Positions 43,940-64,000 of a DNA stretch of 64,000 nucleotides are shown piece after piece. Both the position numbers and the translations under genes were made by a program. This DNA is from Herbidospora cretacea (GTDB lineage Bacteria; Actinomycetota; Actinomycetes; Streptosporangiales; Streptosporangiaceae), in the NCBI RefSeq assembly GCF_001570605.1, contig NZ_BBXG01000031.1, positions 1 through 64,000 on the forward strand. Reading direction: 5' to 3'. The first letter of the stretch is position 1. Every line of letters begins with the position of its first letter. A model generated the notes under the pieces. It saw only the letters and a list, made by a program, of their open reading frames with translations. It was not told the DNA's origin and did no database searches.

Positions 43940-43980
43940 CATTCCGGTCCGGGGCGGCTCAGGGGCCCCGGACCGGAATG
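43940..43980. terminator. Bidirectional terminator after the ACT-GNAT gene
   Basis: CATTCCGGTCCGGGG (43940-43954) pairs perfectly over 15 bp with 43966-43980, loop 11 nt. It lies between convergent genes, one base before the ClpN-protein stop codon. Confidence 0.85.
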
Positions 43981-43981
43981 A

Positions 43982-44602: not shown

Positions 44603-44648
44603 GGGCGGCCTCCGTGGCGGATCGGGGGGTCGGGGGTGGCTGCCCCCA

Positions 44649-45155: not shown

Positions 45156-45178
45156 GCGGGCAAGGGTATGACTTCCGG

Positions 45179-45911: not shown

Positions 45912-46854
45912 CGACCCGCCCGGGTGGCCGCTTCGCCACCGCCTCGTAGGCCTCCCCGGCCAGATCGAGGCCGAAGGTGAACGAGATCGGCGGCGGCCGG
46001 AAGTCGCCCGACTCCAGGTAGGCCGCGACCTGGGCGAGCCGCGCGGCGCACTGCCGGGTGCAGAGCCGCCGGGTGTCCAGGCCGATCATGCGCGCCTCCC
46101 GGTGGTAGAAGTCGGGGAGGTCGATCTCCACCTTCCGCGTCCCGGTCGAGCTGATGACGAGGAGCCGGCCGCCGTGGGCCAGGCAGGCCAGGGCGGCGGG
46201 GGTGGTGACACCGCCGACGGCGTCGTACACGACCTCGGCCCCCGCGCCCCGGGTCAGCCGCCGCACCTCACCGGCGACGTCGTCGTGCAGCAGCACGAAG
46301 TCGTCGAGGGCGGCGTCGTCCACCGGGGGTTTGCGGTCGATCCCGACGACCCGCGCCCCCCGCACCCGGCCGATCTGGGCCACCGCCGAGCCGACGGCGC
46401 CGTTGACGCCGAAGATCGCCAGCGTCTCGCCCTTCTCCAGCAGGGCGGTCTCGACCACGCCGAGCCAGCCGACGACGAAGCTGACCCCGATGACCGACGC
46501 CTCGGCGAAGGTGAGCCTCTCGGGCTTGCGGACCAGCGCCGTGACCGGAACCACCACGAGTTCGGCGTGCGACCCGTCGCGGGTGTACCCCAGGTCGCCG
46601 CCGGTGCCCCACACCTCCGTGCCGAGCCAGTCGCGCGGCCCGCCGACGACCACCCCGGCGAAGTCGCGGCCGGGGACGCGCGGCAGCGACGCGCCCGGGA
46701 TGTAGCCGGAGACGGTCTTCAGGTCCGACGGCGTGACCGAGGCGGCCCTGATCGAGACCAGGGCGTCGTCGCCGTTCAGTTCGGGCTCGGTGACGTCGAC
46801 GACCTCCAGGACGTCGGCGGGCGAGCCATAACGGGCGAATCGCAGGGCGCGCAT
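45898..46854 (-). CDS. Quinone-oxidoreductase-like MDR family enzyme
   Basis: A 318-residue zinc-independent medium-chain dehydrogenase/reductase. The GroES-like N-domain (VSIRAASVTPSDLKTVSGYI; RVPGRDFAGVVV) is followed by the NADPH domain with AIFGVNGAVGSAVAQIGRVR and GIDRKPPVDD. Structural zinc cysteines are absent. The substrate is unknown. ATG 46854 lies one base after the dioxygenase stop, so the two genes are coupled; the C-terminus overlaps the tail of the frameshifted gene on the opposite strand by 14 nt. Confidence 0.87.
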   Translation of the reverse strand: MRALRFARYGSPADVLEVVDVTEPELNGDDALVSIRAASVTPSDLKTVSGYIPGASLPRVPGRDFAGVVVGGPRDWLGTEVWGTGGDLGYTRDGSHAELVVVPVTALVRKPERLTFAEASVIGVSFVVGWLGVVETALLEKGETLAIFGVNGAVGSAVAQIGRVRGARVVGIDRKPPVDDAALDDFVLLHDDVAGEVRRLTRGAGAEVVYDAVGGVTTPAALACLAHGGRLLVISSTGTRKVEIDLPDFYHREARMIGLDTRRLCTRQCAARLAQVAAYLESGDFRPPPISFTFGLDLAGEAYEAVAKRPPGRVVICP

Positions 46855-46855
46855 G

Positions 46856-47743
46856 TCACGGCCTCCTCCCCGGCGTCGCCGGGCTGAGCGTGAAGGTCCA
46901 GTCGACGGTCTGGAACGGCTCGCCGACCTCGGTGCCGTCGGGGGCGGTGCCCGGCCCGTGCGGGACGAAGTCGGCGACCAGCGACCGCTTCACCGCGAAG
47001 ACGGCGTCGTGCTCGAGATAGTCGTCGTCGCGCCGGAACAGCATGGTGATCAACGGCTGGTAGCCGTCGGCGTGCAGCCAGAAGTGGATGTGCTCCGGCC
47101 GCATGGCCGACCGGTCGGCTGCCCGCATGATCTCCCCGCACGGCCCGTCGACCGGCACCGGGTAGTAGCGCGGCGCGATCGACCGGTACCAGAAGCGGCC
47201 GTCGTCGTCGGTCGTCAGCAGGGCCCGCATGGCCGGCCGTCCGTCGAGCCGGTCCTCCTGCTGGACGTCGTAGTGTCCCTCGCCGTCGCTGTGCCAGGTG
47301 TCGACCTTCACGCCCCCGAGGGGCGCGCCGTCCGGCCCGAGAACCCGGCCACTGACGAACATCGGCGTGCCCGGCACCCCGCAGGAGATGTCGGCGCCGT
47401 TGGGCGCGGACGGCCGCCCGTCGACGAAGAAGGGGCCGAGCAGGGTGCTGTCGGTGGCGTGCGGCCCGTGGTGCTCGTTGATCAGGTCGACCAGGACGCT
47501 CAGCCCGAGTATGTCGGACAGCAGCACGTATTCCTGGCGGGTGGGCGTGGTGACCTGGCCGACGCGGGTCAGGAAGTCCATCGCGGCGAACCACTCGTCG
47601 CCCGTGAGCCGCGTCTCCCGGGCGAAGTCGTGCAGGTGCCGGACCAGCTCGACGAACAGCTCGCGGGTACGCCCGTCGCGGCAGCCCTCGAAGGTGCTCT
47701 GCACCTCTTTGGTGATCGTATCCTCGGTCAGGTCGATCGACAT
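46856..47743 (-). CDS. Intradiol ring-cleavage dioxygenase (hydroxyquinol/catechol 1,2-dioxygenase-like)
   Basis: A 295-residue non-haem Fe(III) enzyme. An N-terminal helical dimerisation domain (FLTRVGQVTTPTRQEYVLLS; ILGLSVLVDLINEHH) precedes the beta-sandwich core: SGRVLGPDGAPLGGVKVDTW, the FWYRSIAPRYYPVPVDGP segment with the Tyr ligands, and RPEHIHFWLHADGY with the two His ligands. It opens aromatic diols to muconate or maleylacetate-type acids. ATG 47743 follows GGGGGAGA. No maleylacetate reductase is visible next to it, only the MDR gene. Confidence 0.9.
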   Translation of the reverse strand: MSIDLTEDTITKEVQSTFEGCRDGRTRELFVELVRHLHDFARETRLTGDEWFAAMDFLTRVGQVTTPTRQEYVLLSDILGLSVLVDLINEHHGPHATDSTLLGPFFVDGRPSAPNGADISCGVPGTPMFVSGRVLGPDGAPLGGVKVDTWHSDGEGHYDVQQEDRLDGRPAMRALLTTDDDGRFWYRSIAPRYYPVPVDGPCGEIMRAADRSAMRPEHIHFWLHADGYQPLITMLFRRDDDYLEHDAVFAVKRSLVADFVPHGPGTAPDGTEVGEPFQTVDWTFTLSPATPGRRP

Positions 47744-47944
47744 GGTCTCTCCCCCTCTTCGGACATCCTTCGACGGTAACCCGAGGTCGGAAGGCGGCCT
47801 GGCCAAGGGCCGGCACCGCCTCGGCAAATCCCGGATTTACCAGGGCGGCCCGCTGCCATCGGGCGGACCCGTTCGTGGTCGACCCCGGACAGGTCGCGGC
47901 GGCGAGGCGCCGGGCGGCTGTCCACCGCTCGGTTCAGTATCCGC

Positions 47945-48382
47945 TCACGCCGGGGCGACGCGCCTCCCATAGACGTGGTCGACCTTGAGCGTGATCAAGA
48001 CGCGGCGTTGCTCGACCATGACCGCTCGGTACTCCTCCCAGTTCGGGTGATCGCCCGCGGCGGCGCGGTAGTAGTCGACCAAGGCCTGGGCCTCGGGCCC
48101 GTTCGGGTCGGTTCCCGGGCCGGTCACGGTGACGGTGCCCTCGGCGGTGGCCCAGGACCAGCCGTCGGGGCTGGTGACCTCCAGCACGGCGCGCGGGTCT
48201 CGGCGCAGGTTCACGATCTTGGCTGTCCCCGCGCTCGTCGACACATAGATGACTCCCGCGTCCCGATCGTAGAAGGGCATCACGGGGGACAGCTGCGGGA
48301 GCCCGTCCTGCTTGATCGTCGCGAGAACACCGAGACGGCTCTCCGCGAGCAGGGCGTGCGGGTTGAAAGGCGAAACAGTCAT
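47945..48382 (-). CDS. PPOX-fold (F420- or flavin-binding) protein
   Basis: A 145-residue split-barrel protein of the pyridoxamine-oxidase/F420-binding superfamily: ESRLGVLATIKQDGLPQLSP, MPFYDRDAGVIYVSTSAG, KIVNLRRDPRAVLEVTSPDG and VLITLKVDHVYGRR. Actinobacterial members of this type usually bind F420 or FMN and reduce small molecules. ATG 48382 looks leaderless: CATACT lies 7 bases upstream and there is no ribosome site. An in-frame GTG at 48403 would add seven residues. Confidence 0.85.
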   Translation of the reverse strand: MTVSPFNPHALLAESRLGVLATIKQDGLPQLSPVMPFYDRDAGVIYVSTSAGTAKIVNLRRDPRAVLEVTSPDGWSWATAEGTVTVTGPGTDPNGPEAQALVDYYRAAAGDHPNWEEYRAVMVEQRRVLITLKVDHVYGRRVAPA

Positions 48383-48811
48383 GCGAGGAGTATGGCGATC
48401 CACACACGTGTGACAGTTCTCAGAATGGTCTCGGTAGCCTGATCAGGCGGTCCGGAGTTGTCGTGGACACCCGGAGCGTTCACGCAACGGTGGGAGGCCG
48501 CTCACCGCACCCGGCACCGGCACGCGTCCTGTCCCCGGAACGCCGGCCGAAGACCTCCGCGCCCGGGCACAGCGACCACCAATGAATGACGCCGGCCCTC
48601 TCGCGGGACTTTTGAATAATCACAGCAAGTCGGCACATGATGCGCTGAAAGGATGCCGCGAATGGTGCTGGAAAAAGAACTGGGGTAGTGGATCTCGACA
48701 TCGACGAGTTCTTGACTCCCTCGATCGGGACCTCGTCCTTGAATGGGCAGTGGCCGACACCGGCCGGAAATGGGTACTGCCATATGTGAAGCGATGGCCG
48801 GAGGCGCTGCG

Positions 48812-49083: not shown

Positions 49084-49313
49084 ACCCTCGCAGGCCAGGG
49101 CCAGGGAGTTCTCACCATGTGAGACCGGGTGGGATCAGCGGGTGGCGTCGGCGAAGTGGGCGAAGCTGGGCAGGCGCGCATGCTTGTCACGATCGATGGG
49201 GCCGAGGTGGTGCGGACCCGCCATCGGTCCTCTCTGAACGGTACATCAAAGACATATGGCTCTTTGTTGTCGATCGACCCTCGCCCTGGGCGGGTTCGGA
49301 GGGTCGCCGGGAG

Positions 49314-49381
49314 GCCGGCACCACGTCATGCGCGATCAACCTGTGACCGGCGGCGTCTCACGTTTCGTCTCAGGATGCGAG
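49314..49381 (-). repeat. Right arm of the ~68-bp imperfect inverted repeat
   Basis: Partner of 48812-48880. It ends about 270 bp before the SARP start codon. Confidence 0.65.
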
Positions 49382-49654
49382 AAATTCTTAGACTTAGTTG
49401 AATTTCTGAGAAATGCGGACCCTTGCATCGTGCCTCTTTATGCCCTTCCGGTCGCCGCAACTCTAGTTGGAGAGCTGTCCGTAATCCCCAGGGTGCGTTG
49501 GCAGCATTCGGCCGCGTGTCGGACCAGCCCCTCGGTTACGGTTGTATCAGCCTTATATGTGAAGATTGTCACGGGCAACAAAGGTTCGGTGGTAGGTGCA
49601 CGCTCGGTGTGGTCGCGCTCGATAGGGCGTAACAAAATTCTGGGGGACAGTGAA

Positions 49655-52051
49655 GTGACCTACTTCAAGATGCTCGGACCATTAGAGGTCGTACACGGCG
49701 ATGAGTTGGTCGACCTCGGCGGTGCCCGGCAGCGGGCCACTCTTGGACTGCTGCTGCTCAACCGCAACCGTGTCGTGGCGAGCAGTCAGCTGGTGGAATC
49801 GCTCTGGCCCAAGGACAAGGTGCCGCTGTCGGCCAGGAAGATCGTGCAGAACTCGGTCTGGCGGCTGCGCAGGATGCTGTCGGCCAACGGCGGCACCGCC
49901 GCGCTGCTCAGCCAGCCACCCGGCTACATGCTGCGCGTCGAACCCGAGCAGACCGACGTGCAGAACTTCCACCAGCGCGTCGAGGCGGGACGCGCCAAGT
50001 GCGCCGAGGGCGATCTGGAGGCGGCGTCCCTGCTGCTGCGGCAGGCGCTGGAGCTGTGGCGCGGGCCCGCGCTGGCCGACCTGGTCGAGTCCGGCATCGA
50101 CTGGCCCGAGCTGATCCCGGTGCAGGATGCCAGGCTGGCCGCGCTCGAGGACTACTTCGAGGTCGAGCTCGACCGAGGACACCACCACCAGACCCTGGCC
50201 GAACTCCAGCGGACGGTCGCCACCGAGCCGCTGCGCGAGCGCCTGTGCGGACAGCTGATGCTGGCGCTGTACCGCAGCGGCAGGCAGACCGACGCCCTCA
50301 ACGCCTACCACGCCCTGCGTACCAGCCTGGTCGAGAGCGTCGGCCTGGAACCGAATCCGGCGCTGCGCTCGCTGCAGCAGGCGATCCTCAACCAGGACCC
50401 GGCGCTGATGCCGGCCGGGATGCAGAAGCAGATCACGCTGCAGGCGATCGGCTCTTCCCGTGAGAGCGCCGAAGAACAGCCGAGGCCCGTCGACCTCCGG
50501 CCCTCCCCGCCTGTGCCGCAGCGCAGGTTCATCTCGCCCTTCGAGCCGGAGTCGAATGGGCACGGCGACGCCAGGGCCGTCTCGATGCCCGCCGTGCCCG
50601 TGCTGCGCACCAAGGTGGTCGAGCGCAAGGATGTCAGCGTGCTCATCGTGCGCTGCCAGGGCATGGGCAACATGGCGCTGGAGATGGCCGTGGCCACGAT
50701 CCGCGAGGAGGTCGAGCGGCTGGGCGGCACCGTCGTGGCCTCCATCGGGTCGATCTGGCTGGCGTTGTTCGGCGTCCCCGAGACCGGCGAGGACGACGCC
50801 GAACGCGCCGTGCTCGCCGCGTTGACCATCCGCGACCAGCTCGACTTCCCGGACGCCTCCGGCGCCGAGACCCCTGTCGCCGTCCACGTCGCGGTGGCCA
50901 CCGGCGAGGCGCTGGTGGGCCACCACACCGACAACGACAGTGCGCCGTCGGTGAGCGGCGTTCTGCTCGACGAATGCCAGGAGTTGCTCTCGCAGACCCC
51001 GGTCGGCGAGATCCGGGTGTGCGAGAACACCAGGCGTGCCACCGAGTGCGGCACCACCTACCTCGAGGTCGAGTCGTCCTTCGGCTGGCAGGTCGGCGGG
51101 CTTCGGCACGAGTACCTGGCGCAGCACGACATGCCGATGATCGACCGCGAGCACGACCTTGAGATGCTGGGCGGCCTCCTGCGCCGCACCAGGCACGTCG
51201 GCGCGCCCCACCTGGTGACCGTTCTCGGCGACCCCGGTGTCGGCAAGACCCGGTTGGTCCTGGAGTTCGAGCGCAGGATCGCCGCGACCGCCGAGCCGGT
51301 GCGGGTCCTGGTCGGCCGCGCGCGGCCGTTCGCGGCGGACATCTGCACCGACGTGCTCAACGACCTGCTGTGCTCGTACTGCGGCATCGACCCGGACGGC
51401 CCTGTGGAGGGGGTACAGGCCGAGATCGCCCGTGCGATGGAACGACTCGTCCAGTCGGAGGACGAACGGCGCAGACTGGTGCACCGGCTGACCGGCCTGG
51501 TCGACCGGAGACGGGGACGCTCGAACGTGCCGGTCACTGACGTGCTGCACGCGTGGCGGCACCTGCTCGGCCAGATCGCCCGGCGCGGCCCCGTCGTCGT
51601 GATCGTCGAGGACCTGCACGTCGCGGACGACCATTTGATCGACTTCGTCGAGGACCTGCCGAGGTCGCTTTCCGGCCTGCCGGTGCTGGTGGTGGTCACC
51701 GCGCGGCCGGACCTGGCCAGGCGCCGCCCGGTGTGGGGTTCGCGACTGCGGCACGCGCTGACGATGAACCTGGAACCCATCTCCGACACCGCGGTGGACC
51801 GGCTGCTGGAGTTCCTGCAATCCACCGGGACCAGCGAGGTCAAGGGCTCGGCCGGGAGCCTGCTCGCCGGCTTCGGCGACGACGTGGCCGCGCGCCGCAC
51901 GCGCATGAGGCGGGTCCTGGCGTCCGGTTCGTCCTCGCTGCGCAAGGATCGGTACCCGGGCGGCGACGCCGGTGGTCAGGCCGCCGCCGCCCGCGTGGTG
52001 TACTGCCAGGTCACCGAGTCGCCCGCACAGGCAGACGGCGCGGACAGATGA
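49655..52051 (+). CDS. Large SARP-type pathway activator with cyclase-like and ATPase domains
   Basis: A 798-residue regulator. Residues 1-90 are an OmpR-type winged helix (FKMLGPLEVVHGDELVDLGG; LVESLWPKDK), 95-245 the BTAD domain, about 326-480 a nucleotide-cyclase-like domain (EMAVATIREEVERLGGTVVA) that lacks the metal-binding Asp at its start (VLIVRCQG), and 520 onward an AAA-type ATPase with GDPGVGKTR near 525 and VVVIVEDLHVADD near 648. The C-terminal TPR region of many large SARPs is missing. GTG 49655 follows GGGGGA. It probably switches on the cluster to its right. Its last 41 bases overlap the P450 gene on the other strand. Confidence 0.9.
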   Translation: MTYFKMLGPLEVVHGDELVDLGGARQRATLGLLLLNRNRVVASSQLVESLWPKDKVPLSARKIVQNSVWRLRRMLSANGGTAALLSQPPGYMLRVEPEQTDVQNFHQRVEAGRAKCAEGDLEAASLLLRQALELWRGPALADLVESGIDWPELIPVQDARLAALEDYFEVELDRGHHHQTLAELQRTVATEPLRERLCGQLMLALYRSGRQTDALNAYHALRTSLVESVGLEPNPALRSLQQAILNQDPALMPAGMQKQITLQAIGSSRESAEEQPRPVDLRPSPPVPQRRFISPFEPESNGHGDARAVSMPAVPVLRTKVVERKDVSVLIVRCQGMGNMALEMAVATIREEVERLGGTVVASIGSIWLALFGVPETGEDDAERAVLAALTIRDQLDFPDASGAETPVAVHVAVATGEALVGHHTDNDSAPSVSGVLLDECQELLSQTPVGEIRVCENTRRATECGTTYLEVESSFGWQVGGLRHEYLAQHDMPMIDREHDLEMLGGLLRRTRHVGAPHLVTVLGDPGVGKTRLVLEFERRIAATAEPVRVLVGRARPFAADICTDVLNDLLCSYCGIDPDGPVEGVQAEIARAMERLVQSEDERRRLVHRLTGLVDRRRGRSNVPVTDVLHAWRHLLGQIARRGPVVVIVEDLHVADDHLIDFVEDLPRSLSGLPVLVVVTARPDLARRRPVWGSRLRHALTMNLEPISDTAVDRLLEFLQSTGTSEVKGSAGSLLAGFGDDVAARRTRMRRVLASGSSSLRKDRYPGGDAGGQAAAARVVYCQVTESPAQADGADR

Positions 52052-53369: not shown

Positions 53370-54896
53370 TTACCGTCCGACGAGGCCGCGGTACAGTCCG
53401 CGGTTCACCTTCGGCACGAAGATGCTCTCCTCGGCGCTGGCCGCCGCGGCGGCCGGGCCGGACAGGGTCGGCGAGCCGGCGACCCGCAGGCCGTCCTCGA
53501 TCGCGCCGTCGATGTAGCCGTTCCACCCGTTGGCGATGTCGCTGCCCGCGAACTTGATGCGGCCGTGCGGCTGCTGGAGCTTCGCGTGCAGCCTGATGAG
53601 CTGGTGCGGCTGGCGGTAGCCGCCGGTGCCGAGGGCGAACTCGTCCTTGTGGAAGTCGGTCACGATGTGGTCGCGCACCTTGGCCCCGGGGAGCACCCTC
53701 CGGAGGGCCCGCTCCACCTCGTCCCGGTCGGTCTCGTCGAAGGTGGTGTCGACGGTGAAGGCGACCACCGGATCGCCGTCGTTGAACCGGCCCATGAAGC
53801 AGAACGGGTCACCCCTGCCCTCGGGCGACTCGGCCACGAACCTGTCCGTGGGGTTGGACAGGTCGATCCACAGCTTCCGCTCCTCCGTCACGCCCATCCC
53901 GGCGTTGGTCGCCTCCCGGTGCGCGGGGGGCAGCGGGGGGCTGAAGGAGATCGTGCGCCAGACGTTCACCGGCACGGCCATGATGACTTCCGGTGCGGTG
54001 AACGACTCGCCCGCGCGGGTCGTGACGGTCACCTCGCGGGCGTTCTGGACCACGGATTTGACGGGCGTGTTGAGCTTGAGGACCGGTTTGGACTCGGCGA
54101 GCATGGCGTTCAGGATCGACACCGTGCCGCGTGCCGGGCGGTAGGTGTTGACGCCGTGGAAGGCCTCGAACGTGCCGCCGGCCAGTGCCCACCACTGCTG
54201 GATGTGGGTGAGCGCGCCGCGCTCGCTGGTCCCGCCGTAGAGCGAGGTCCAGCTGGTCAGCAGGATCTCGTCCTCCGGGGCCAGGGCCATCTGGTCGAGC
54301 CGGTCCCGCAGCGAGAACCGGTCGAACCTGGCGACCAGGTCGCGGTTCACGAGCGGTTGGTAGGGCGACGGATAGATCCTGGTCGAGTCCTTGAAGAACT
54401 CGGTGAACAGCTCGCCCTGCCGGATGTAGGCCACGGACGGGTCGAGTTCCTCGAACCCGGTCAGGGTCGGCATGATCGCCCTGGTCACGCCCTGGTCGGC
54501 CATGATCGGCAGGCGGTAGCGGTTGAGTTCGCGCCACACGTGCGGCTGTAATCGGTCGACCCAGGTGCCGCCGCGCTCGATCATGTGGCCCCGCCAGGTG
54601 TCGGTCCAGGTCCGGCCGCCGACCCGATTACGCGCTTCGAGCAGCAGTACCCGCTTGCCCTTGGCGCGCAGCTCACGGGTGGCGGTGACCCCGGCCATCC
54701 CCGCGCCCACGACGATCACGTCGAAGCGCCGCCCGTGGGCCGAGCCCTGGGCGGCCTCGGCGACGGCGGCCGTCGCGGAGGACGCCAACGCGGCCCCGGT
54801 GATCGCGCCGAGACCACCCGCCACACCCGCTTTGAGCACACTGCGCCGCAGCAGCCCCCGACCCTCGGGCCGGCCGGACTCCATCTCGTGGGTCAC
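53370..54896 (-). CDS. Flavin monoamine oxidase-like enzyme A, Tat signal
   Basis: A 508-residue FAD amine oxidase. The N-terminus LLRRSVLKAGVAGGLGAITG looks like a twin-arginine signal, with an Ala-rich cleavage region up to residue about 50. FAD binding: VIVVGAGMAGVTATRELRA, LLLEARNRVGGRTWT. C-terminal FAD loop: IKFAGSDIANGWNGYIDGAI. It should oxidise a primary or secondary amine to an imine with H2O2. It is about 88-90 percent identical by eye to the copy at 55209, differing mainly in residues about 155-185 and 360-440. GTG 54896 with GAGGGA upstream. Confidence 0.9.
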   Translation of the reverse strand: MTHEMESGRPEGRGLLRRSVLKAGVAGGLGAITGAALASSATAAVAEAAQGSAHGRRFDVIVVGAGMAGVTATRELRAKGKRVLLLEARNRVGGRTWTDTWRGHMIERGGTWVDRLQPHVWRELNRYRLPIMADQGVTRAIMPTLTGFEELDPSVAYIRQGELFTEFFKDSTRIYPSPYQPLVNRDLVARFDRFSLRDRLDQMALAPEDEILLTSWTSLYGGTSERGALTHIQQWWALAGGTFEAFHGVNTYRPARGTVSILNAMLAESKPVLKLNTPVKSVVQNAREVTVTTRAGESFTAPEVIMAVPVNVWRTISFSPPLPPAHREATNAGMGVTEERKLWIDLSNPTDRFVAESPEGRGDPFCFMGRFNDGDPVVAFTVDTTFDETDRDEVERALRRVLPGAKVRDHIVTDFHKDEFALGTGGYRQPHQLIRLHAKLQQPHGRIKFAGSDIANGWNGYIDGAIEDGLRVAGSPTLSGPAAAAASAEESIFVPKVNRGLYRGLVGR

Positions 54897-55009
54897 TGTC
54901 CCTCGTTTCTTTCCTGAGAACTGGTAGCCGGATCAAACATTTCTGGACAGCGCCCCGGCACCTCTGGTCGCCTTTTCGCGTACCGGCTGTGGATGGAGGA
55001 ATTCGCAGA

Positions 55010-55041
55010 ACCACGGCTGTGCTGCCGATGGGCGCGCTCAC
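55010..55041 (-). pseudogene. Remnant of the P450 start between the amine oxidases
   Basis: From 55041 leftwards the sequence reads GTGAGCGCGCCCATCGGCAG, matching ATGAGCGCGTCCATTGACAG of the P450 gene (24 of 31 bases), and the leader to its right (CAGGAGCCTAG and beyond) also matches. After about ten codons the similarity stops. It was carried along in the tandem duplication and is not functional. Confidence 0.75.
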
Positions 55042-55117
55042 GGCCAGGAGCCTAGCCCCGACATGCCCGGCCCGTGCCTATGGTTTCCCGCGTTGAGATC
55101 ATCGAGGCGGAATTGCG

Positions 55118-55151
55118 AATAGCGGTGGCCGGAATTCCGGCCACCGCTATT
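55118..55151. terminator. Perfect 34-bp palindrome between the amine oxidases
   Basis: AATAGCGGTGGCCGGAATTC opens a sequence that equals its own reverse complement over 34 bp, centred on GGAATTCC, followed by TTTT on the plus strand. It is the second copy of the hairpin at 53279. It probably ends transcription of the gene at 55209 but could also be an operator. Confidence 0.75.
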
Positions 55152-55208
55152 TTTCGCAGACCGCGCGTAGACCGTCTTGAGACTTTCCGGGAGCGAATGG
55201 TCTGGCTG

Positions 55209-56726
55209 TTACCGTCCGACGAGGCCGCGGTACAGTCCGCGGTTCACCTTCGGCACGAAGATGCTCTCCTCGGCGCTGGCCGCCGCGGCGGCCGGGCCGG
55301 ACAGGGTCGGCGAGCCGGCGACCCGCAGGCCGTCCTCGATCGCGCCGTCGATGTAGCCGTTCCACCCGTTGGCGATGTCGGCGCCCGCGAACTTGATGCG
55401 GCCGTGCGGCTGCTGGAGCTTCGCGTGCAGCCTGATGAGCTGGTACGGCTGGCGGTACGCGCCGGCGCCCAGGGAGAACGGGTCCACATGCCAGTTGGTC
55501 ACGATGTAGTCGCGCATCGTGGCCCCCGGGAGCACCCGCCGCACGGCTCGCTCCACCTCGTCCCGGTCGTCGACGTCGAAGGTGCGGTCGACGGTGAAGG
55601 CGACCACCGGCTGGCCGTCGTTGAACCGGCCCATGAAGCAGAGCGGGTCACCCCTGCCCTCGGGCGACTCGGCCACGAACCTGTCGGTGGGGTTGGACAG
55701 GTCGATCCACAGCTTCTTCTCGTGCGGCACGCCGACCCCGGCGTTGGTCGCCTCCCGGTGCGCGGGGGGCAGCGGGGGGCTGAAGGAGATCGTGCGCCAG
55801 ACGTTCACCGGCACGGCCATGATCACCTCGGGTGCGGTGAACGACTCGCCCGCGCGGGTCGTGACGGTCACCTCGCGGGTGTTCTGGACCACGGATTTGA
55901 CCGGGGTGTTGAGCTTGAGGACCGGTTTGGACTCGGCGAGCATGGCGTTCAGAATCGACACCGTGCCCCGCGCGGGGCGGTAGGTGTTGACTCCGTGGAA
56001 GCCCTCGAACGTGCCGCCGGACAGTGCCCACCACTGCTGGATGAGGGTCAGCGCGCCCCGCTCGCTGGTCCCGCCGTACAGAGACGTCCAGCTGGTCAGC
56101 AGGACTTCGTCCTCCGGCGCCAGGGCCATCTGGTCGAGCCGGTCCCGCAGCGAGAACCGGTCGAACTCGGCGACCAGGTCGGGTCGGCTCAGCGGCTGGA
56201 AGGGTTTGGGGAAGATCTCGGTCGACCGGTCGAAGAACCTGGTGAACAGCTCTTTCTGCCGGATGTAGGCCACGGACGGGTCGAGTTCCTCGAACCCGGT
56301 GAGGGTCGGCATGATCGCCCTGGTCACGCCCTGGTCGGCCATGATCGGCAGGCGGTAGCGGTTGAGTTCGCGCCACACGTGCGGCTGTAATCGGTCGACC
56401 CAGGTGCCGCCGCGCTCGATCATGTGGCCCCGCCAGGTGTCGGTCCAGGTCCGGCCGCCGACCCGATTACGCGCTTCGAGCAGCAGTACCCGCTTGCCCT
56501 TGGCGCGCAGCTCACGGGTGGCGGTGACCCCGGCCATCCCTGCGCCCACGACGATCACGTCGAAGCGCCGCCCCAGAGGCGAGCCCTCGGCGACGGCGGC
56601 CGTCGCGGAGGACGCCAACGCGGCCCCGGTGATCGCGCCGAGACCACCCGCCACACCCGCTTTGAGCACACTGCGCCGCAGCAGCCCCCGACCCTCGGGT
56701 GGGGTGGATTCCATGTCGTTGGTCAC
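55209..56726 (-). CDS. Flavin monoamine oxidase-like enzyme B, Tat signal
   Basis: A 505-residue near-copy of the gene at 53370. The signal LLRRSVLKAGVAGGLGAITG, the FAD loops and the C-terminal FAGADIANGWNGYIDGAIED are kept, so it should be active. It is three residues shorter after the signal (VAEGSPLGRRF). Changes cluster in patches, for example KELFTRFFDRSTEIFPKPFQ against GELFTEFFKDSTRIYPSPYQ, and NWHVDPFSLGAGAYRQPYQ against DFHKDEFALGTGGYRQPHQ. Those look like substrate-side loops. GTG 56726. Both oxidases point toward the P450. Confidence 0.9.
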   Translation of the reverse strand: MTNDMESTPPEGRGLLRRSVLKAGVAGGLGAITGAALASSATAAVAEGSPLGRRFDVIVVGAGMAGVTATRELRAKGKRVLLLEARNRVGGRTWTDTWRGHMIERGGTWVDRLQPHVWRELNRYRLPIMADQGVTRAIMPTLTGFEELDPSVAYIRQKELFTRFFDRSTEIFPKPFQPLSRPDLVAEFDRFSLRDRLDQMALAPEDEVLLTSWTSLYGGTSERGALTLIQQWWALSGGTFEGFHGVNTYRPARGTVSILNAMLAESKPVLKLNTPVKSVVQNTREVTVTTRAGESFTAPEVIMAVPVNVWRTISFSPPLPPAHREATNAGVGVPHEKKLWIDLSNPTDRFVAESPEGRGDPLCFMGRFNDGQPVVAFTVDRTFDVDDRDEVERAVRRVLPGATMRDYIVTNWHVDPFSLGAGAYRQPYQLIRLHAKLQQPHGRIKFAGADIANGWNGYIDGAIEDGLRVAGSPTLSGPAAAAASAEESIFVPKVNRGLYRGLVGR

Positions 56727-56755
56727 TGTCCCTTGTTTCCTTCCAGGAACTCATT

Positions 56756-57106
56756 GCGGAAATAGCGGATGACCGGTCGCCGGGCTATGGACGCAGTGCT
56801 GCACGCGTGCGATAGTCGGACGTAATCGGTCGGACACGGCGAGTAATGCGGCCACGGCATCACTGATGTGTGAGCAATGTTCCGACGCTTATGTGCGATG
56901 GGCGCGCGGTGATACCTGGGCACCCATCGGCAACGTCGCCACTTGGGTGACCGCATAGAGGACCCAAGGGCCGTCCCGCATTAGTAATCGCGGTCAGGCT
57001 AGCGCACGGGGCATATTCAACAAAAGACTCGGCTCGCCCGTGATCGAAACGTCTCTTGCGACTTCTTCAAACGGATTATGGCGTTGATTTTCGCCAACGC
57101 CGAATA
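56756..57106. other. Upstream region of amine oxidase B
   Basis: About 350 bp of relatively AT-rich sequence with no gene I trust. The minus-strand open frame here has no ribosome site. It probably holds the promoter for the oxidase-P450 transcript. Confidence 0.55.
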
Positions 57107-57158
57107 GCGGTCGACCCGTTGTCCTCCTTTTCGAAGGCGTGTTTCGGGTCGACCGCTG
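57107..57158 (-). terminator. Hairpin after the imine-reductase-like gene
   Basis: AGCGGTCGACCC (57107-57118) pairs perfectly over 12 bp with GGGTCGACCGCT (57147-57158); the 28-nt loop itself contains TTTTCGAA. It lies about 35 bp beyond the stop codon of the gene at 57194. Confidence 0.7.
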
Positions 57159-57193
57159 TCATGCGGCGCGCCAGGTGCGCCGCAGGGGAAAAC

Positions 57194-58090
57194 TCAGGCC
57201 GAGGGCTTGCGGAACACCTCGACCATCGCGGCGTAACTGGCGGGCCCGTGACCTTCGGCGATCGCGCGCTTGCCCAGCGCCGTGATGAGCGCGGGCCACT
57301 CGGCGTTGACCCCCAGCTCCCTGCTCTCGTCGAGCAGGTGGTCCATCGCGTCGACGTGCGTGTCGATGGTGGAGTCCTCCGCCGGCCATTCGCCCGCGTC
57401 GATCTGCGCGGCGTAGGCCTCGATGAAGCCCAGCGACATCTCGGCGAGCGCCTTGGCCATCGGCAGGTACTCGGTGGCCTTCACGCCCGCCGTGCCCAGC
57501 AGCGCGACACCGTGCAGGAAGCTGTTCTCGACGCCCCACATCATGGTGAGCAGGGAGACGTCGTAGAGGGCGGCGAGACCATGGTTCTCACCCAGGTAGG
57601 TGGTCGCCGCGGGGGCCACCGCCTTGAGGGTCTCCTCGTGCTCGTCGAAGGCCGACTTCGGGCCGCAGTACAGCAGCAGGGCCTCGTCGGTGGCGATCGC
57701 CGGCGGGATGGCCATGATCGCGCTGTCGACGTAGGCGCCGACGTTGTTCTCCACCGCCCACTTCGCCATGTCCCTGGCCTGCGACGAGCTCGCGCTGGTC
57801 ATGTTGACCAGCGTGCGGCCCTTCAGCGAACCCGCTTCCGGGTCGAGCAACTGGTGCACGGCGTCGTAGTCCGAGACGCAGATGACGACCAGCGGGCTCG
57901 CCTCGACGGCGTCCTTGACCGAGGGCGCCAGGACCGCGCCCCTGGCGACGAGCTCATCGGCCTTGGCGGCCGAGCGGTTCCACACGGTGGTCGGGTGCCC
58001 GTTCCCGAGGAACGCGGCAGCCAATGCCTGACCCATCAGGCCCAGACCGATGACGGTGACCGGCGCTTGGGCGGCATTGGGGTTGGACAT
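57194..58090 (-). CDS. Imine reductase-like NADPH oxidoreductase
   Basis: A 298-residue enzyme of the beta-hydroxyacid-dehydrogenase-like fold. The N-domain has VIGLGLMGQALAAAFLGNGH and TVWNRSAAKADELV, typical of NADPH users. The C-domain pattern fits imine reductases rather than hydroxyisobutyrate dehydrogenases: YLGENHGLAALYDVSLLTMM, then MWGVENSFLHGVAL, DTHVDAMDHLLDESRELG and a final GHGPASYAAMVEVFRKP. The dehydrogenase catalytic Lys motif (KxxxN) is not seen. It would reduce a cyclic imine made elsewhere in the cluster. ATG 58090 has AGGAG at good spacing. Confidence 0.85.
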   Translation of the reverse strand: MSNPNAAQAPVTVIGLGLMGQALAAAFLGNGHPTTVWNRSAAKADELVARGAVLAPSVKDAVEASPLVVICVSDYDAVHQLLDPEAGSLKGRTLVNMTSASSSQARDMAKWAVENNVGAYVDSAIMAIPPAIATDEALLLYCGPKSAFDEHEETLKAVAPAATTYLGENHGLAALYDVSLLTMMWGVENSFLHGVALLGTAGVKATEYLPMAKALAEMSLGFIEAYAAQIDAGEWPAEDSTIDTHVDAMDHLLDESRELGVNAEWPALITALGKRAIAEGHGPASYAAMVEVFRKPSA

Positions 58091-58233
58091 CACATTCACT
58101 CCTGTTCGGTCCGCGCCCATTCAGGTGACGCGATGTGTTTGTTCGGCGGACTTCAAAGGTTTCACCGGCGGGGGTGGCCGACCAGCGGCGGATCTGACCA
58201 TCTTCGAACGATTCCTGCCATAGACTCGCGATC

Positions 58234-59328
58234 ATGAGTCCGGGCGCAATCGCGATCGCTGTGATCAACGGCACCGACATGCAGGTGTGCGAGATTTACG
58301 AGACCGCCATCGCCAACGCGGTCTTCGGTGATCCGCAATACGACCTGGCCAATCCCTGGTACGAATTGAAGCTTTGCGCGGTGAACGGGAACGAGCCCGC
58401 GGCGCGCGGATTCTCCGTGCGAACGGCGCATGGGCTCGACGACCTCGTCGTCGCCGACACCGTCATCGTTCCCTCGGTCCCTTACTACGTGCTGCACGGC
58501 GAGGCTCCACTGCCGTCGGACTTCGTGGAGGCGCTGCGCGAGGCGGCCAGGGCGGGGGCGCGGATGGCGTCGATGTGCACCGGGGCGTTCGCCCTCGCCG
58601 AGGCGGGCCTGCTCAACGGCCGCAGGGCCACCACGCACTGGATGCACACGTCCGATCTGGCCAAGCGCTACCCGGAGGTCCAGGTCGAGGACACCGTGCT
58701 CTATGTCGACGACGGCGATGTCCTCACCAGCGCGGGCATGAGCGCCGGCCTGGACCTGTGCCTGCATCTGGTGCGCCGCGACCTGGGCGCCTATGTGGCC
58801 GGCCAGTTGGCGCGCCGGATGGTCGTGGCCGGTCACCGCCCCGGCGGGCAGGCCCAGTTCGTCGACCTGTCCGTCCCCGACAGCGACGACGACACCCTCG
58901 CGATGACGATGGACTGGGCCTCACGCAACCTCGACCAGCCCCTCACCATCGACGCGATGGCGAAGCAGGCGGGCATGAGCAACCGCACCTTCTTCCGCAA
59001 ACTCCAGGCGACCACCGGCCTCACCCCGCTGAAGTGGCTGCTCAACCAGCGCCTGTCCCGCGCGCAGAGCCTGTTGGAGACCACCGACCTGCCGATCGAG
59101 CGGGTCAGCGAGGCCAGCGGCCTGGGCACTGCGGCCAACCTGCGCAGGCACTTCACCACACACTTCGGCGTCACGCCCACCGACTACCGGCACTCGCTCA
59201 GTGCCGGAGTCCGCGCGCAGAGCCGCGGGGCGGGCGCCGCGCCGGTGACGCGGTCGCCGGCGCCCGGGTCCTGTCAGCCCTCCGCGGGCCAGGAGCTCTC
59301 CGCCGGCCAAGGGCCGTTGCCCGCGTAG
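58234..59328 (+). CDS. GlxA-type transcriptional regulator (DJ-1/PfpI + AraC)
   Basis: A 364-residue regulator. Residues 1-190 form a DJ-1/PfpI-like domain with Cys115 in ASMCTGAFALAEAGLL; residues about 225-325 an AraC double helix-turn-helix (TIDAMAKQAGMSNRTFFRKL; IERVSEASGLGTAANLRRHF). The last 45 residues are low-complexity. It is divergent from the imine-reductase-like gene across 143 bp and is a likely regulator of it. ATG 58234. The 3' end overlaps the SnoaL-like gene on the other strand by 55 nt. Confidence 0.88.
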   Translation: MSPGAIAIAVINGTDMQVCEIYETAIANAVFGDPQYDLANPWYELKLCAVNGNEPAARGFSVRTAHGLDDLVVADTVIVPSVPYYVLHGEAPLPSDFVEALREAARAGARMASMCTGAFALAEAGLLNGRRATTHWMHTSDLAKRYPEVQVEDTVLYVDDGDVLTSAGMSAGLDLCLHLVRRDLGAYVAGQLARRMVVAGHRPGGQAQFVDLSVPDSDDDTLAMTMDWASRNLDQPLTIDAMAKQAGMSNRTFFRKLQATTGLTPLKWLLNQRLSRAQSLLETTDLPIERVSEASGLGTAANLRRHFTTHFGVTPTDYRHSLSAGVRAQSRGAGAAPVTRSPAPGSCQPSAGQELSAGQGPLPA

Positions 59329-59702
59329 GCGTTGTCGATCACATAACGCCAGCCGCCGTCCGCGCCACGCTGCAGCACGTCGACCGCCAGGCCGCCGAGC
59401 TTCTCGTAGACGCCGTCCCTGGTGGTGTCCATCGTCCACTCGACCACCACCATGGCGGTGTCGCCGTGGACCATCTTCGCGTGCACGGTCGCCTCGACGG
59501 TCGCGTTGCGGGTCGCGATGAAGTGCTTGACGTAGTCCCTGCGCTCCTGGCCCGCGACCGGCTTTCCGGGCTCCCACAGGCCGACCGCGTCATCGACGTA
59601 CAGGGCGTTGACGGCATCCGCGTCGCCCGCGTTGAACGCCACGTTGAACATTTCCTGGTGCGTGTCGATATCACTGGCCAGGGCGTGTTTTTCGAGGGCC
59701 AT
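59274..59702 (-). CDS. SnoaL-like / DUF4440 protein
   Basis: A 142-residue cone-shaped NTF2-fold protein: FNVAFNAGDADAVNALYVDD, GLWEPGKPVAGQE, TVHAKMVHGDTAMVVVEWTM and a C-terminal GGWRYVIDNAYAGNG. Such proteins act as isomerases, cyclases or dehydratases in polyketide pathways, but many have no known reaction. ATG 59702 with GGGAGTG upstream. Confidence 0.85.
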   Translation of the reverse strand: MALEKHALASDIDTHQEMFNVAFNAGDADAVNALYVDDAVGLWEPGKPVAGQERRDYVKHFIATRNATVEATVHAKMVHGDTAMVVVEWTMDTTRDGVYEKLGGLAVDVLQRGADGGWRYVIDNAYAGNGPWPAESSWPAEG

Positions 59703-59884
59703 GGTGAGCGCACTCCCATTCTTGGTTATCGGATGTTTTCGGCGTGATGTCGGGCAACGCCGATGTGGACGCTACCGCCCGCCGAGTGGCGGCCGATCGC
59801 AGTCAGGTAATCGCTGCCGGACCTGGTCGAGAGCTGCGGCGATTACCCCGTTGACACCACACTGAGATCCGATTTGCGGCTTTT

Positions 59885-60721
59885 TTAGCCGGGGAACACC
59901 TTTGTCCAGTCAACGGAGGCGGCGTACTCCGAGAAATCCCGTGCCTTGCGGCCGGTGACCTTCTCCACGCCGTCGGACAGGTACGAGGTCGCCCCGTCGT
60001 CGATGGCGTCGAAGAGCCGGATGACGTAGTCGGCCAGTTCCCGCGAGTGGCCCCGGCCCACGAGGTGCCGGGCGTACTCCTCGTGGGAGAGCACGGTGAG
60101 GCGAACCTCACGGCCGGAGGCGGCGGAGATCTCGGCGACGACCTCGCCGAAGGTCATCAACCGCGGTCCGGACATCTCGTACACGGCCTCGTCGTGGCCT
60201 TCCCCGGTCAGCGCGGCCACCGCGACGGCGGCGATGTCCTCGGCGTCGATGAAGGGCTCGGTTCCCTCGCGGGTGGTGACCCGCAGCTCGCCCTCGGCGA
60301 TCTCCGTGCAGAGGAAATTGGGCTCGCTGAAGTTCTGGAAGAACCAGGTGGGGCGCAGGATCGTCCAGCTGAGTCCGGAGCCGCTCACCACGTCCTCGAC
60401 GCGGAACAGGCCCGGCTCGTCGGACCTCTTCGTGAAGGGGCGCGCGGAGAGCAGCACCAGGCGCTCGACGCCTGCGGTGGTGGCGGTGCCGATGAAGTCG
60501 GTGAGCATCGTCGCGGCGTCGGCGCCCTGTTCGTCGACGACGTAGACGGCTTTCATCCCGTCGACCGCGGCAGGCCAGGTGGAGCTGTCGTGCCAGTCGA
60601 AGCGGGTCGCGCCGGAACGCGAGGCGATTCTGGGCCGGTGACCGAGCTCGGTGAGCTGACGTGCGACCCTGGCGCCGGTCTTGCCCGTGCCGCCGAGGAC
60701 GAGAATGGGGGATTCGCTCAT
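59885..60721 (-). CDS. NmrA-like NAD(P)H-binding reductase
   Basis: A 278-residue atypical short-chain reductase. ILVLGGTGKTGARVARQLTE binds NAD(P); LVLLSARPFTKRS and LSWTILRPTWFFQNFSEPNF follow, and the C-terminal part is substrate-binding. The classical Tyr-x3-Lys is not in place, as in other NmrA-like proteins, so it may be an enzyme (azoreductase/quinone type) or a redox sensor. ATG 60721 has GAGG upstream. It lies 67 bp downstream of the PKS gene on the same strand. Confidence 0.88.
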   Translation of the reverse strand: MSESPILVLGGTGKTGARVARQLTELGHRPRIASRSGATRFDWHDSSTWPAAVDGMKAVYVVDEQGADAATMLTDFIGTATTAGVERLVLLSARPFTKRSDEPGLFRVEDVVSGSGLSWTILRPTWFFQNFSEPNFLCTEIAEGELRVTTREGTEPFIDAEDIAAVAVAALTGEGHDEAVYEMSGPRLMTFGEVVAEISAASGREVRLTVLSHEEYARHLVGRGHSRELADYVIRLFDAIDDGATSYLSDGVEKVTGRKARDFSEYAASVDWTKVFPG

Positions 60722-60788
60722 GCGCCTCATCCAAGCATGGGCGAATTCCCCACCCCCGCAACCGTTTCTCAGATCGGTAACCCCGCGG

Positions 60789-63700
60789 TCACCCCTTCGG
60801 AGCGGGGAAATAACCGCTGCGGACGAAGAAGTCCACATATCTGCCGAACAGTGCCCGGTCGACGGGCGGGCACACGATTCCGGTGCCCGCCAGCGCCTTC
60901 TCCGTGTCCGAGACGTCCATCGGCGGGTAGGTCGGCCCCGCGCCCTCGGAGTTGATCTCCTCGAAGGTGTCGAACAGCGGAGTGACCGCGTTCTCCCGGT
61001 CGGCGCCGATGGTCGCGCGCCAGGAGTCCCAGTCGGTCTCGGACAGGTCGTACCCGATCGCCCGCAGGTGGTCGACGAGATCGCCGAACGACTGCGACTG
61101 CTCGTTGAACAGGTGGAAGGTGCCGTTCGCGGAGGACTCGCGGGTGGCCAGCGTGGTGATCGCCCCGCTGACGTAGTCCACCGGGACCAGGTGCACCCGG
61201 CCGGTCAGCCGGTCGGGGACCACGCCGGCCTGGAGCATGCCCTTGAGGCTGAGCCAGACGAAGTCCTTGGTCTGGCACGCGCCGCTGTCGCGGGCCCCGC
61301 ACACCACGTCGACCCGGTAGACCGACACGGGGACACCGCGGGCACGGGCGATCCCGAGCACGCCCTCCGCCACCCACTTGCTCTGGAGGTAGCCGTTGCG
61401 CAGCAGGTGCGCGGGACCGGTCGTGGCGGTGACACCCACCGGCTCGTCGCTCTCCGACGCGGCGAACACGCCCGTGGTCGACACGTAGTGCACCGGGACC
61501 GTGCGGTGGCGCGCGGCCAGCCGCAGCACCTCGACGGTGCCGGTCACGTTGGAGCTCTTCAGATCCTGGTACGGGCGCAGCCAGCTCACCGTCGCCCCGG
61601 CGTGGAAGACGGCGTCGACCCGGCGGGCGAGGTCGTCGAACACCTGCTCGCCCAGGCCGAGCCGGGGGGAGGTGAGGTCGCCGACGTGGACGACGACCCT
61701 GGCCGGGTCGACCTCGCCGGCCACCTCGTACCACTCCAGGTTCTCCCGCAGCCTGCGCTCCGCGTCGGCCTGGTCGGCGCCGCGCACCAGGCAGTGCACG
61801 ACCGCGTCGGTGTCGCGCACGATGTCACGCAGCAGGAACGCTCCGAGGAATCCACTGGCTCCCGTCAGCAGCACCTCCCGGGGGTCGGTGGCGACGGTGA
61901 CCACGGTGTCCGCGGCGACCACGTCGTCGTCGAGCACCACCTCCTTGGCGAAGTCCACGCCCGCGACGTCGTCCCCGCCGGTGACCGCCGCGCTCGCCGT
62001 GGCGCAGAGGTACTCGGTCAGCGCGGCGGGCGTCGGGTGCTCGAACACCAGCGAGGCGGACAGCCGCGTGCCGATGTGCGCGGCCAGCCGGTTGCGCAGT
62101 TCCACCGAGATCAGCGAGTCGAAGCCGAGATCGACGAAGAGCTGGTCGTCGCCGATCGCCGAGGCGTCGGCGTGGCCCAGAACCGACGCGACCTCCGCGC
62201 GGACCAGCTCGCCCACGATCTCCCGCCGTCGCTGCTCGGACTGCCCGGCCAGCCGCCGTTCCAGCGGCTCGGCCTCGCCCGCCCCCTGGGTGGCCCGCCG
62301 GGAGGTGATCCTGGCCAGGGCGGTGAACAGCAGCGGCACCGCGGCAGGCCGGGCGGCCAGCGCGCGGAGGTCCAGCGGCGTCGCGACCGGGGCCGGGCGA
62401 CCGGTCCGCAGCGCGGCGTCGAACAGGCCGGGGCCGTCGTCAGGGGTGATCGGCAGCAGCCCGCTGCGGGCGATGCGCTTGAGATCGGCGTCGCTGAGGT
62501 TGCCGCCCATACCGCCGCCCACCTGTGACCACAGGCCCCACACCAGCGAGGTCGCCGCGAGCCCGGTGCCCGTCCGGTGCGCGGCCAGCGCGTCGAGGAA
62601 GGTGTTCGCCGCGGCATAGGCGCCCTGGCCGGAACCGCCGATGACACCGGCGACGGAGGAGAACAGCACGAACGCCGACAGGTCCATGTCCTTGGTCAAC
62701 TCGTGCAGGTTCCACGCGGCGTGCACCTTGGGCCGCAGCACCCTGGCGACCTGGTCGGCGTCCAGGGAGCCGATCATGCCGTCATCCAGGACACCCGCCG
62801 TGTGCACGACACCGATGAGCGGGCGCGCGGCGGGGATGGAAGCCAGCACCGAGGCGAGTTGCTCCCGGTCGGCGGCATCGCACGCGGTGATCGTCACTCG
62901 CGCGCCGAGAGCGGCCAGCTCGTCGGCCAGGTCTCCCGCTCTCCGCGCGGCCGGGCCGCTCCGGCTGACCAGCAGCAGGTCGGTGACGCCGTGCGCACGG
63001 ACGAGGTGCCTGGCGAACAGCGCGCCCAGCGCGCCGGTCCCGCCGGTGATCAGCACCGTGCCGCCGGGCCGCCACGGTGACGCCGCGTGCCCCGGCGCGA
63101 GCCGGGCCAGCCTGGGAACGGCCACCGAGCCCGCGCGCACGGCCAGTTGCGCCTCTCCCGTCGCGATCGCGGCCGGCAGCGCCGACATCGACGCCGGATC
63201 GTCGTCGACGTCGATCAGCCGGAACCGGCCGGGCATCTCCGACTGGGCGGAGCGCAGCAGGCCCCAGACCGCGGCCGCGGCCAGGTCGACCGGCGTGTCG
63301 CCGGCGTCGATCGCGCGCCGGGTCAGGAAGACCAGCGGGACCTCGGCGGAGCGCTCGTCGTCGTTCCAGGCGCGCACCAGTTCCAACGCGTGCAGGACGG
63401 CGGTCTGGGCCCGGTCGGCGACCGTGCCCCCAGCGTTGTCCTCCGCGTCGTCCTCCGTGGCGAACATCAGCGGCGCGACCAGGCCGGTGAAGGTCCCGGC
63501 GGCGGACAGCGCCTCGCCGACCCCGGCGAACCGCGGCGGCCACGGCAGGCCGCCGTGGCCGGTCTCCAGCACGGCCGGCCCGGCCTCGCCGGTCGGCCCG
63601 GCCGGGATGACCGGGGTCCACGCCACGCGGAACAGCGCCTCACCGGGACGGGCCAGCGCGGCGCCGACCTCGTCCTCGCTCGCGCCCTGGGTGACCACGG

Positions 63701-64000
63701 CCGCCGCACGGGCCAGCGGGGCGCCCGACGCGTCGGCCAGCAGCACCGACACCGCGCCGTCCCCGGCCGGGGTGATCCGCACTCTGGCGGCGGCGGCGCC
63801 CACGGCGTGCACGGTCACCCCGCGCCACTCCGCCACGACGCCGGGGCGCCCGGTGAGCAGTGCGGCGGGGTGCAGCGCGGCGTCGAGCAGCGCGGGGTGC
63901 ACGCTGAACCCGTCCGCACCGGTGTCGCCGGGCAGCCGCACCTCCGCGAACAGCTCGCCGTCGCGCCGCCACGCGGCCAGCAGTCCTGAGAAGACCGGGC
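60789..64000 (-). CDS. Type I polyketide synthase, last module with thioester-reductase release (5' end outside window)
   Basis: About 1070 residues of the C-terminus are inside the window. From the right edge: end of a DH domain with [12 protein letters not shown]; a KR with [35 protein letters not shown] (LDD, a B-type KR) and [14 protein letters not shown]; an ACP with [16 protein letters not shown] (Ser near 62119); and a thioester-reductase domain with [19 protein letters not shown] and [11 protein letters not shown] (Tyr-x3-Lys). The TD domain replaces a thioesterase and releases the chain as an aldehyde or alcohol using NADPH. The open frame continues to position 64000 without a start. 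Confidence 0.95.

Follow-up and report, generated by a model that had tools for sequence, protein, structure and literature searches.

A predicted gene cluster for a small polyketide alkaloid, inserted as one block in Herbidospora cretacea

The closest described pathway to the gene cluster considered here is that of argimycin P in Streptomyces argillaceus. In those portions of the published accounts on which this study draws, for this and the other described pathways alike, the arp genes encode a modular polyketide synthase (PKS) ending in a thioester reductase, the aminotransferase ArpN, the imine reductase ArpDHII, the SnoaL-like proteins ArpHI and ArpHII and the amine-oxidase-like ArpO (PMC5300972, PMC5820336). 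The PKS ArpP together with ArpN is enough to form the piperideine ring, which ArpDHII reduces, as bioconversion showed (PMC5300972, PMC5820336), and ArpO is required for the pyridine forms (PMC5820336). The cluster compared with it here lies in Herbidospora cretacea and begins within the window, that is, the whole stretch of 64,000 bases that was analysed (bases 1-64000 of contig C31, 77,876 bases, in an 8.28-Mb assembly). It appears to be a complete, horizontally inserted gene cluster for a small polyketide alkaloid, a reading to which we give a probability of about 0.7.

Like arp, the H. cretacea cluster combines KSQ-type loading, a modular PKS ending in a thioester reductase, a class III aminotransferase, an imine reductase (IRED) of the 6-phosphogluconate dehydrogenase (6PGDH) type, SnoaL-like protein, a SARP regulator and an oxidase similar to amino oxidases (ArpO, likened to ours by its description and not by sequence or export signal). 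The arp cluster differs in its five extension modules, C12 chain, acyl-CoA dehydrogenase-like ArpDHI, flavin reductase ArpK, type II thioesterase and TetR repressor, whereas ours has three modules (C8), a probable methylmalonyl unit, a P450, an NmrA-type short-chain dehydrogenase/reductase (SDR), an F420/PPOX protein, an AraC regulator and two amine oxidases (AOs) with a motif of the twin-arginine translocation (Tat) type. Streptazone E, streptazolin and streptopyridine share a pentaketide-type chain, reduction, transamination and a piperideine (PMC4077424), but their C10 chain comes from acetate and the StzK oxidase is assigned to epoxidation (stz genes as cited in PMC5820336). Coelimycin P1 (cpk) and cyclizidine likewise follow thioester reductase release with transamination, and a post-PKS hydroxyl oxidation has been proposed for cpk, although the portions drawn on mention no imine reductase of the 6PGDH type for cpk (PMC9733639, PMC5300972). 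A literature search by term, whose coverage lay outside the primary cyclizidine, streptazone E and coelimycin accounts, returned no description of the H. cretacea cluster. A first-pass annotation of the window had been aware of no described cluster with this exact gene set; the cluster is indeed undescribed in the literature searched, but argimycin P is a near precedent for the combination.

That annotation had also placed the left edge of the cluster at 53,370, about 5.5 kb too far right. The insertion edge lies at window 47852..47853 (a junction without strand), and everything from there to C4:4563, on a second contig, is missing in the congener G003, whose empty site aligns with the window as far as 47,852 and with C4 from 4,564 onward. 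The cluster thus spans window 47,853 to the contig end at C31:77,876 and C4:1-4,563, an insertion of 30,024 + 4,563 = 34,587 bp (34.6 kb), with the gap between C31 and C4 extra. In G001, G004 and G005 the left edge is at most 11 bp, and the right edge at most 17 bp, away from that in G003. G001 and G003-G006, five congeners in all, have the genes from an amidohydrolase to a zinc-dependent alcohol dehydrogenase directly next to pgl-opcA-zwf-tkt, and four of them also have a dioxygenase at the empty site (not found in G006); their 20-kb stretches gave no match to the aminotransferase, the IRED, the SARP or the PPOX protein. The genes at window 39725-47827, which run from the amidohydrolase to an intradiol dioxygenase, were considered as cluster members and ruled out, as the congeners carry them without the PKS. 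Near the insertion point, 34 bases at window 47816-47849 also match, in inverted orientation, the empty site of G003, possibly as a terminator-like inverted repeat between the dioxygenase and pgl.

The right-hand part was found by searching the genome. A ketosynthase (KS) search gave 62 matches, one of them at the start of C4 on the minus strand, and a class III aminotransferase search gave 14, one of which adjoins that ketosynthase. The C4 start encodes a loading KSQ-acyltransferase (AT) without an acyl carrier protein (ACP), and the PKS gene cut off by the end of C31 begins with an ACP. Lentzea alba NEAU-D13 carries these genes together as a block, in which KSQ-AT-ACP and two modules occupy a single open frame followed by PKS-A in the same order. 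The join of C31 to C4 is drawn because the PKS domains are complementary, the L. alba gene is uninterrupted and the congeners show the empty site. The remaining PKS modules, which the first-pass annotation had expected to the right of the window, are therefore in place, as is the aminotransferase it looked for there (C4:3013-4563, just beyond the PKS loading module); it had regarded a full cluster lacking an aminotransferase or other nitrogen source as evidence against an alkaloid, and the full cluster has an aminotransferase. The clustered aminotransferase, the PKS with its thioester reductase and the argimycin P parallel all support its alkaloid-type polyketide reading. Elsewhere in the genome, another contig has tens of ketosynthase matches over about 160 kb (G000:C1:154860-317633), which mark a very large modular PKS region.

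Among the single-copy cluster proteins, five share 81-91% identity with their L. alba counterparts, and the oxidases share 84-86%; in tblastn searches against L. alba the KSQ piece scored highest (94%) and the SARP lowest (76%). The flanking genes zwf and pgl, which are neighbours on one L. alba contig, show 71% and 58% identity, and zwf is 97% identical to that of the two congeners tested. The host genome belongs to the Streptosporangiales and, in the NCBI taxonomy, Lentzea to the Pseudonocardiales. Together, the empty site, the high cluster identity against the low flank identity to L. alba and the differing orders indicate an apparent horizontal acquisition across orders. For seven orthologue pairs with L. 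alba, dN was 0.05-0.12, dS 0.18-0.41 and dN/dS about 0.24-0.55, highest for the SnoaL-like protein.

A search of the genus and family by amine oxidase gave a high score in the window genome only (1/341 at E ≤ 1e-120), along with a homologue of 49% identity in the congener G003. Relatives were found through an aminotransferase scan, which gave at least 79 loci, at least 29 of them close (L047-L075, 45-88% identity) and at least 50 at 35% or less. Eight were fetched at length; they were picked from 18 for a close IRED, so that its presence in 8/8 is by choice, and G349, also with a close IRED, was left out since separate contigs carry its IRED and its aminotransferase. Among the eight, a thioester reductase domain (TD), SnoaL and AraC were each present in seven, amine oxidase and P450 in six, and NmrA and PPOX in five, and six hold both IRED and amine oxidase. 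Actinokineospora iranica, which shows neither TD nor oxidase, and S. ipomoeae, whose contig is truncated, are kept in these denominators. Orthologous clusters thus occur in Lentzea and Streptomyces. An oxidase match at E ≤ 1e-150 was present in 6/392 Streptomyces genomes, three of which had already been fetched; the oxidase is encoded once in each of the five Streptomyces clusters having it and twice in L. alba. In A. iranica (L129-L130) an IRED, AraC, KSQ PKS and aminotransferase were seen and no thioester reductase or amine oxidase within 40 kb; this related cluster may have decayed.

This distribution bears on the view that the polyketide is never aminated after release and ends as a simple aldehyde or alcohol, and that the oxidases, IRED and aminotransferase are part of an adjacent amine-degrading pathway. 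Amine oxidases and IREDs are found outside biosynthetic clusters too, and the pgl-zwf flank is primary metabolism, but the clean insertion bounds exactly this gene set, which Lentzea and Streptomyces also carry as a block. We regard that view as very improbable.

Other aminotransferase-bearing loci were also observed. In the congener G003, contig C32 (L033-L034) carries a different cluster with a CrmG-like aminotransferase, SARP, SnoaL, KSQ and an amine oxidase of 46-48% identity. In the more distant clusters L058, L069, L074 and L075 (Streptomyces, Saccharothrix, Actinokineospora) a CrmG-like aminotransferase stands with P450, amine oxidase and, within the flanks examined, SnoaL. Beside the S. 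hydrogenans cluster lies a copper amine oxidase-like open frame (L143:689-2059), and in S. bluensis an additional open frame (L135:16531-17877), weakly matching FAD-binding families, lies between the TD PKS and NmrA; S. viridochromogenes has a frame of equal length (448 aa) at the counterpart position, for which there is no space in our cluster.

The PKS comprises KSQ, three modules and a terminal thioester reductase. PKS-A (minus strand; 60789..64000 in the window, whole gene C31:60789-67217) reads docking-KS-AT-dehydratase (DH)-ketoreductase (KR)-ACP-thioester reductase, the last domain, already recognised in the first-pass annotation, matching PF07993 (E 1.2e-65) and TIGR01746 (311 bits against a cut-off of 213). 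PKS-B (C31:67248-77876 plus C4:3-2705) carries KSQ-AT-ACP and two KS-AT-DH-KR-ACP modules; its part on C31 alone reads ACP-KS-AT-DH-KR-ACP-KS-AT-DH-KR-ACP, with the start missing. The loading KSQ active site is TVDTSQSSS. The loading, module-1 and module-3 ATs carry HAFH, which we take to be the malonyl-type motif. For methylmalonyl ATs the canonical motif pair is GHSQGE/YASH. Three Streptomyces orthologues (S. bluensis, S. cyaneofuscatus and CB00316) have this pair in the penultimate AT; their chain length, KSQ plus four modules, is of the streptazone type, and S. hydrogenans has more modules. These Streptomyces orthologues had been considered as makers of abikoviromycin, a C10 compound with no extra methyl; given the GHSQGE/YASH pair in the three, that assignment was dropped.

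In the penultimate-module DH, the catalytic Asp is replaced and the YGPxFQ stretch is missing in 5/5 readable cases, with His in our cluster, Arg in L. alba, Glu in S. bluensis, and Arg in both S. cyaneofuscatus and CB00316; S. hydrogenans has no DH in that module. Our module-2 DH therefore looks dead. The KR of the same module has lost a catalytic residue in 5/6 readable cases (Ser in L. alba; Asn in S. bluensis, S. cyaneofuscatus, CB00316 and S. hydrogenans), ours being the exception. This count leaves out S. viridochromogenes, whose penultimate KR the motif search did not recover in a stretch with N runs, A. iranica, where no TD module was seen, and S. ipomoeae, whose piece lacks the module. 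C5 is the position required for a six-membered imine, and loss of the KR residue would leave there the ketone required for ring closure.

From these domains, the KSQ loading module (acetate from malonyl) and the three modules would build a C8 chain with a second extender that is probably methylmalonyl and with the C5 oxygen kept. The steps from release to C=N reduction are modelled on characterised relatives. The terminal thioester reductase would free an aldehyde, which the CrmG-like aminotransferase would convert to a primary amine; this amine would attack C5 (a ketone, or a hydroxyl oxidised beforehand) to give a six-membered cyclic imine, about a 2-propenyl-3-methyl-1-piperideine and probably 4-hydroxylated, and the cytoplasmic imine reductase would then take the C=N bond to a piperidine. 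Decoration by the P450, SnoaL-like and NmrA proteins would follow, and the Tat-motif oxidases, after export, might return the ring amine to an imine or carry it towards a pyridine.

Several observations weigh against this scheme. The join between C31 and C4 spans an unsequenced gap; judged by how far apart AT and ACP lie in relatives, its length is 0 to about 60 bp. The module-2 AT, with GHSAGE/RASH here and GHSTGE/VASH in L. alba, departs from the canonical methylmalonyl pair. Our module-2 KR retains K-S-Y-N, and may leave a C5 hydroxyl needing oxidation by an enzyme outside those named here; because the module-2 DH is altered, an oxygen would stay at C5 with ketone or hydroxyl alike. Either state has precedent, since in argimycin a dead KR gives the C5 ketone and in coelimycin a later hydroxyl oxidation is proposed (PMC5300972, PMC9733639). 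The module-3 DH keeps its His/Asp pair though neighbouring motifs are altered (Asp is Glu in S. bluensis, and the domain is absent in S. hydrogenans), which makes 4-hydroxylation uncertain, and the 4-hydroxyl is accordingly likely but not sure. The C5 oxidation state and the module-2 extender are thus among the main uncertainties, together with the location and substrate of the amine oxidases.

The aminotransferase at C4:3013-4563, divergent from the PKS loading module, has CrmG as its nearest chain (E 2.5e-153; next chain E 3e-39), and adjoins the loading module in 7/7 relatives with the region readable. The imine reductase (57194..58120, minus strand; 6PGDH/IRED fold) is 91% identical to that of L. 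alba and matches RedAm-like_C (E 4.4e-41) and NAD_binding_2 (E 1.6e-22). Its top PDB chains have 6PGDH-type titles, followed by 3zgy, 'R-imine reductase' (E 2.1e-100), and it aligns over its full length with IRED-type chains, the RedAm-like C-terminal domain included. This enzyme could carry out the C=N reduction. That same C-terminal match would also fit a reductive aminase joining the TD aldehyde, a suitable electrophile, to an external amine to give a secondary amine, with the aminotransferase serving another step. The constant position of the aminotransferase beside the loading module speaks against this, as do the oxygen kept at C5 by the PKS, which is positioned for intramolecular imine formation, and the argimycin ring, formed by PKS and aminotransferase alone before IRED reduction (PMC5300972, PMC5820336); intermolecular coupling is improbable.

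The two flavin amine oxidases are encoded in tandem on the minus strand: AO1 at 53370..54896 (PF01593, E 7.7e-50) and AO2 at 55209..56726 (PF01593, E 5.1e-51). They are 91.1% identical to one another (86.6% for the L. alba pair). By amino acids, the AO1-AO1 and AO2-AO2 identities with L. alba (86.3% and 84.3%) exceed the crossed pairs (80.0 and 82.2%), but by dS our AO2 is nearer L. alba AO1 than L. alba AO2, which disagrees on the age of the tandem duplication; either an old duplication followed by gene conversion or independent duplications are possible. AO2 matches the PDB chains 7khn (E 2.3e-75) and 5ttj (E 3.8e-74), titled simply 'Amine oxidase', which we take to be NicA2; the homology covers residues 19-470 (E about 1e-74), and the NicA2 likeness of AO1 is inferred from its 91% identity to its neighbour. 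At the aromatic-cage positions of NicA2, presumably Trp427 and Asn462, the alignment places Gly and Tyr in AO2, so that the cage residues differ. The oxidases are probably best treated as NicA2-related sequences with a substrate class of their own, and not filed as NicA2.

Both oxidases begin with RRSVLK, followed by a hydrophobic stretch and AxA. The RR motif with a hydrophobic stretch was found in 18/18 cluster oxidases read (two ours and 16/16 in relatives, 13 of those 16 with the Lys too), including six distant ones of 39-48% identity, as against 1/5 other PF01593 proteins of this genome; at the start of the imine reductase there was no signal peptide or Tat-type motif, these features being judged by eye. 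The oxidases may therefore act after export, apart from the imine reductase. The first-pass annotation had described IRED and oxidases alike as C=N enzymes; both are present, but the oxidases may work elsewhere. Naphthyridinomycin offers a comparable pair in NapW and NapU, the latter of berberine-bridge type. There, C=N reduction is intracellular and is followed by export and extracellular re-oxidation by a secreted flavoprotein (PMC8648761); that system is a tetrahydroisoquinoline of nonribosomal peptide synthetase origin with an SDR reductase, while ours, predicted from genes, has an IRED-fold reductase and a NicA2-like oxidase. Two opposing enzymes, one apparently cytoplasmic and the other apparently exported, fit the NapW/NapU scheme. 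The IRED and oxidases could thus form a matched protect-and-reactivate pair, the cyclic imine being quenched to an amine in the cytoplasm and regenerated outside by Tat-exported NicA2-type oxidases; on sequence grounds we hold this tentatively, at less than even odds.

The oxidases could also be intracellular tailoring dehydrogenases that convert the piperidine into an aromatic pyridine, the role proposed for ArpO, with the Tat motif incidental or just a membrane anchor. NicA2-type chains, the nearest to AO2, catalyse the oxidation of ring C-N bonds, and clusters with an oxidase and no IRED found nearby (L033 of G003, L058, L066, L074 and L075, in limited flanks where distant IREDs could escape) misfit a strict protect-and-reactivate pair. 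The ArpO knock-out, moreover, loses the pyridine-type argimycins PI and PII (PMC5820336). The RR motif in all the cluster oxidases read, against 1/5 of the other family members in this genome, argues the other way, and we hold intracellular aromatisation, too, at less than even odds. Shielding by the IRED and exported oxidases has its own difficulties. The Gly at the cage Trp position makes the substrate of the oxidases, and even their activity, uncertain. IRED and oxidase are also not always paired: G020 and G022 have a TD, aminotransferase and 42-47% IRED with no oxidase within 40 kb, L057 has an IRED with no oxidase found within the flanks examined, and L069 has both (IRED 38%, oxidase 43%). 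This loose pairing in the wider relatives weakens shielding as an obligatory pair.

All the genes named in the first-pass annotation (two amine oxidases, imine reductase, P450, SnoaL-like, NmrA and PKS end) are present as open frames where it placed them; its list of cluster contents lacked the AraC regulator and the PPOX protein. The latter, a PPOX-class flavin/F420 oxidoreductase (PNPOx-like; 47945..48403, minus strand), matches TIGR03618 above the cut-off (E 7.3e-41) and is a cluster member; its orthologue adjoins the aminotransferase in 5/8 fetched relatives. It is followed by a SARP-type regulator with an AAA domain (49256..52051, plus strand; BTAD E 6.1e-44), which probably starts further right than 49256, the L. 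alba open frame being 819 aa, and by the cytochrome P450 (52011..53201, minus strand), conserved in the cluster at 91% identity to L. alba and 57-66% in five Streptomyces clusters. To the right of the imine reductase are the AraC-family regulator with a DJ-1/PfpI domain (58234..59328, plus strand) and the SnoaL/DUF4440-like small protein (59274..59702, minus strand), a candidate cyclase or epoxide-opening enzyme, each with a counterpart in 7/8 fetched relatives. The NmrA-type atypical SDR (59885..60838, minus strand; start probably about 60724) has a counterpart in 5/8; since the stretches from L. alba, A. iranica and S. hydrogenans gave no NmrA match, it was dropped as an essential step.

What had been a partial cluster missing its aminotransferase now reads as a complete pathway of three modules, small enough for expression as a whole. 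It predicts methyl-branched C9 (C11 in Streptomyces) bacterial polyketide piperidines, a group with few described pathways. Imine reductases and amine oxidases are both sought-after biocatalysts, for which the cluster may supply native partners, and a hypothesis is offered for the sharing of one cluster by their genes. If the protect-and-reactivate pairing is true, it would account for two apparently opposing reactions in one cluster, and would represent a second, independently built naphthyridinomycin-like strategy that has passed between actinomycete orders as a single block.

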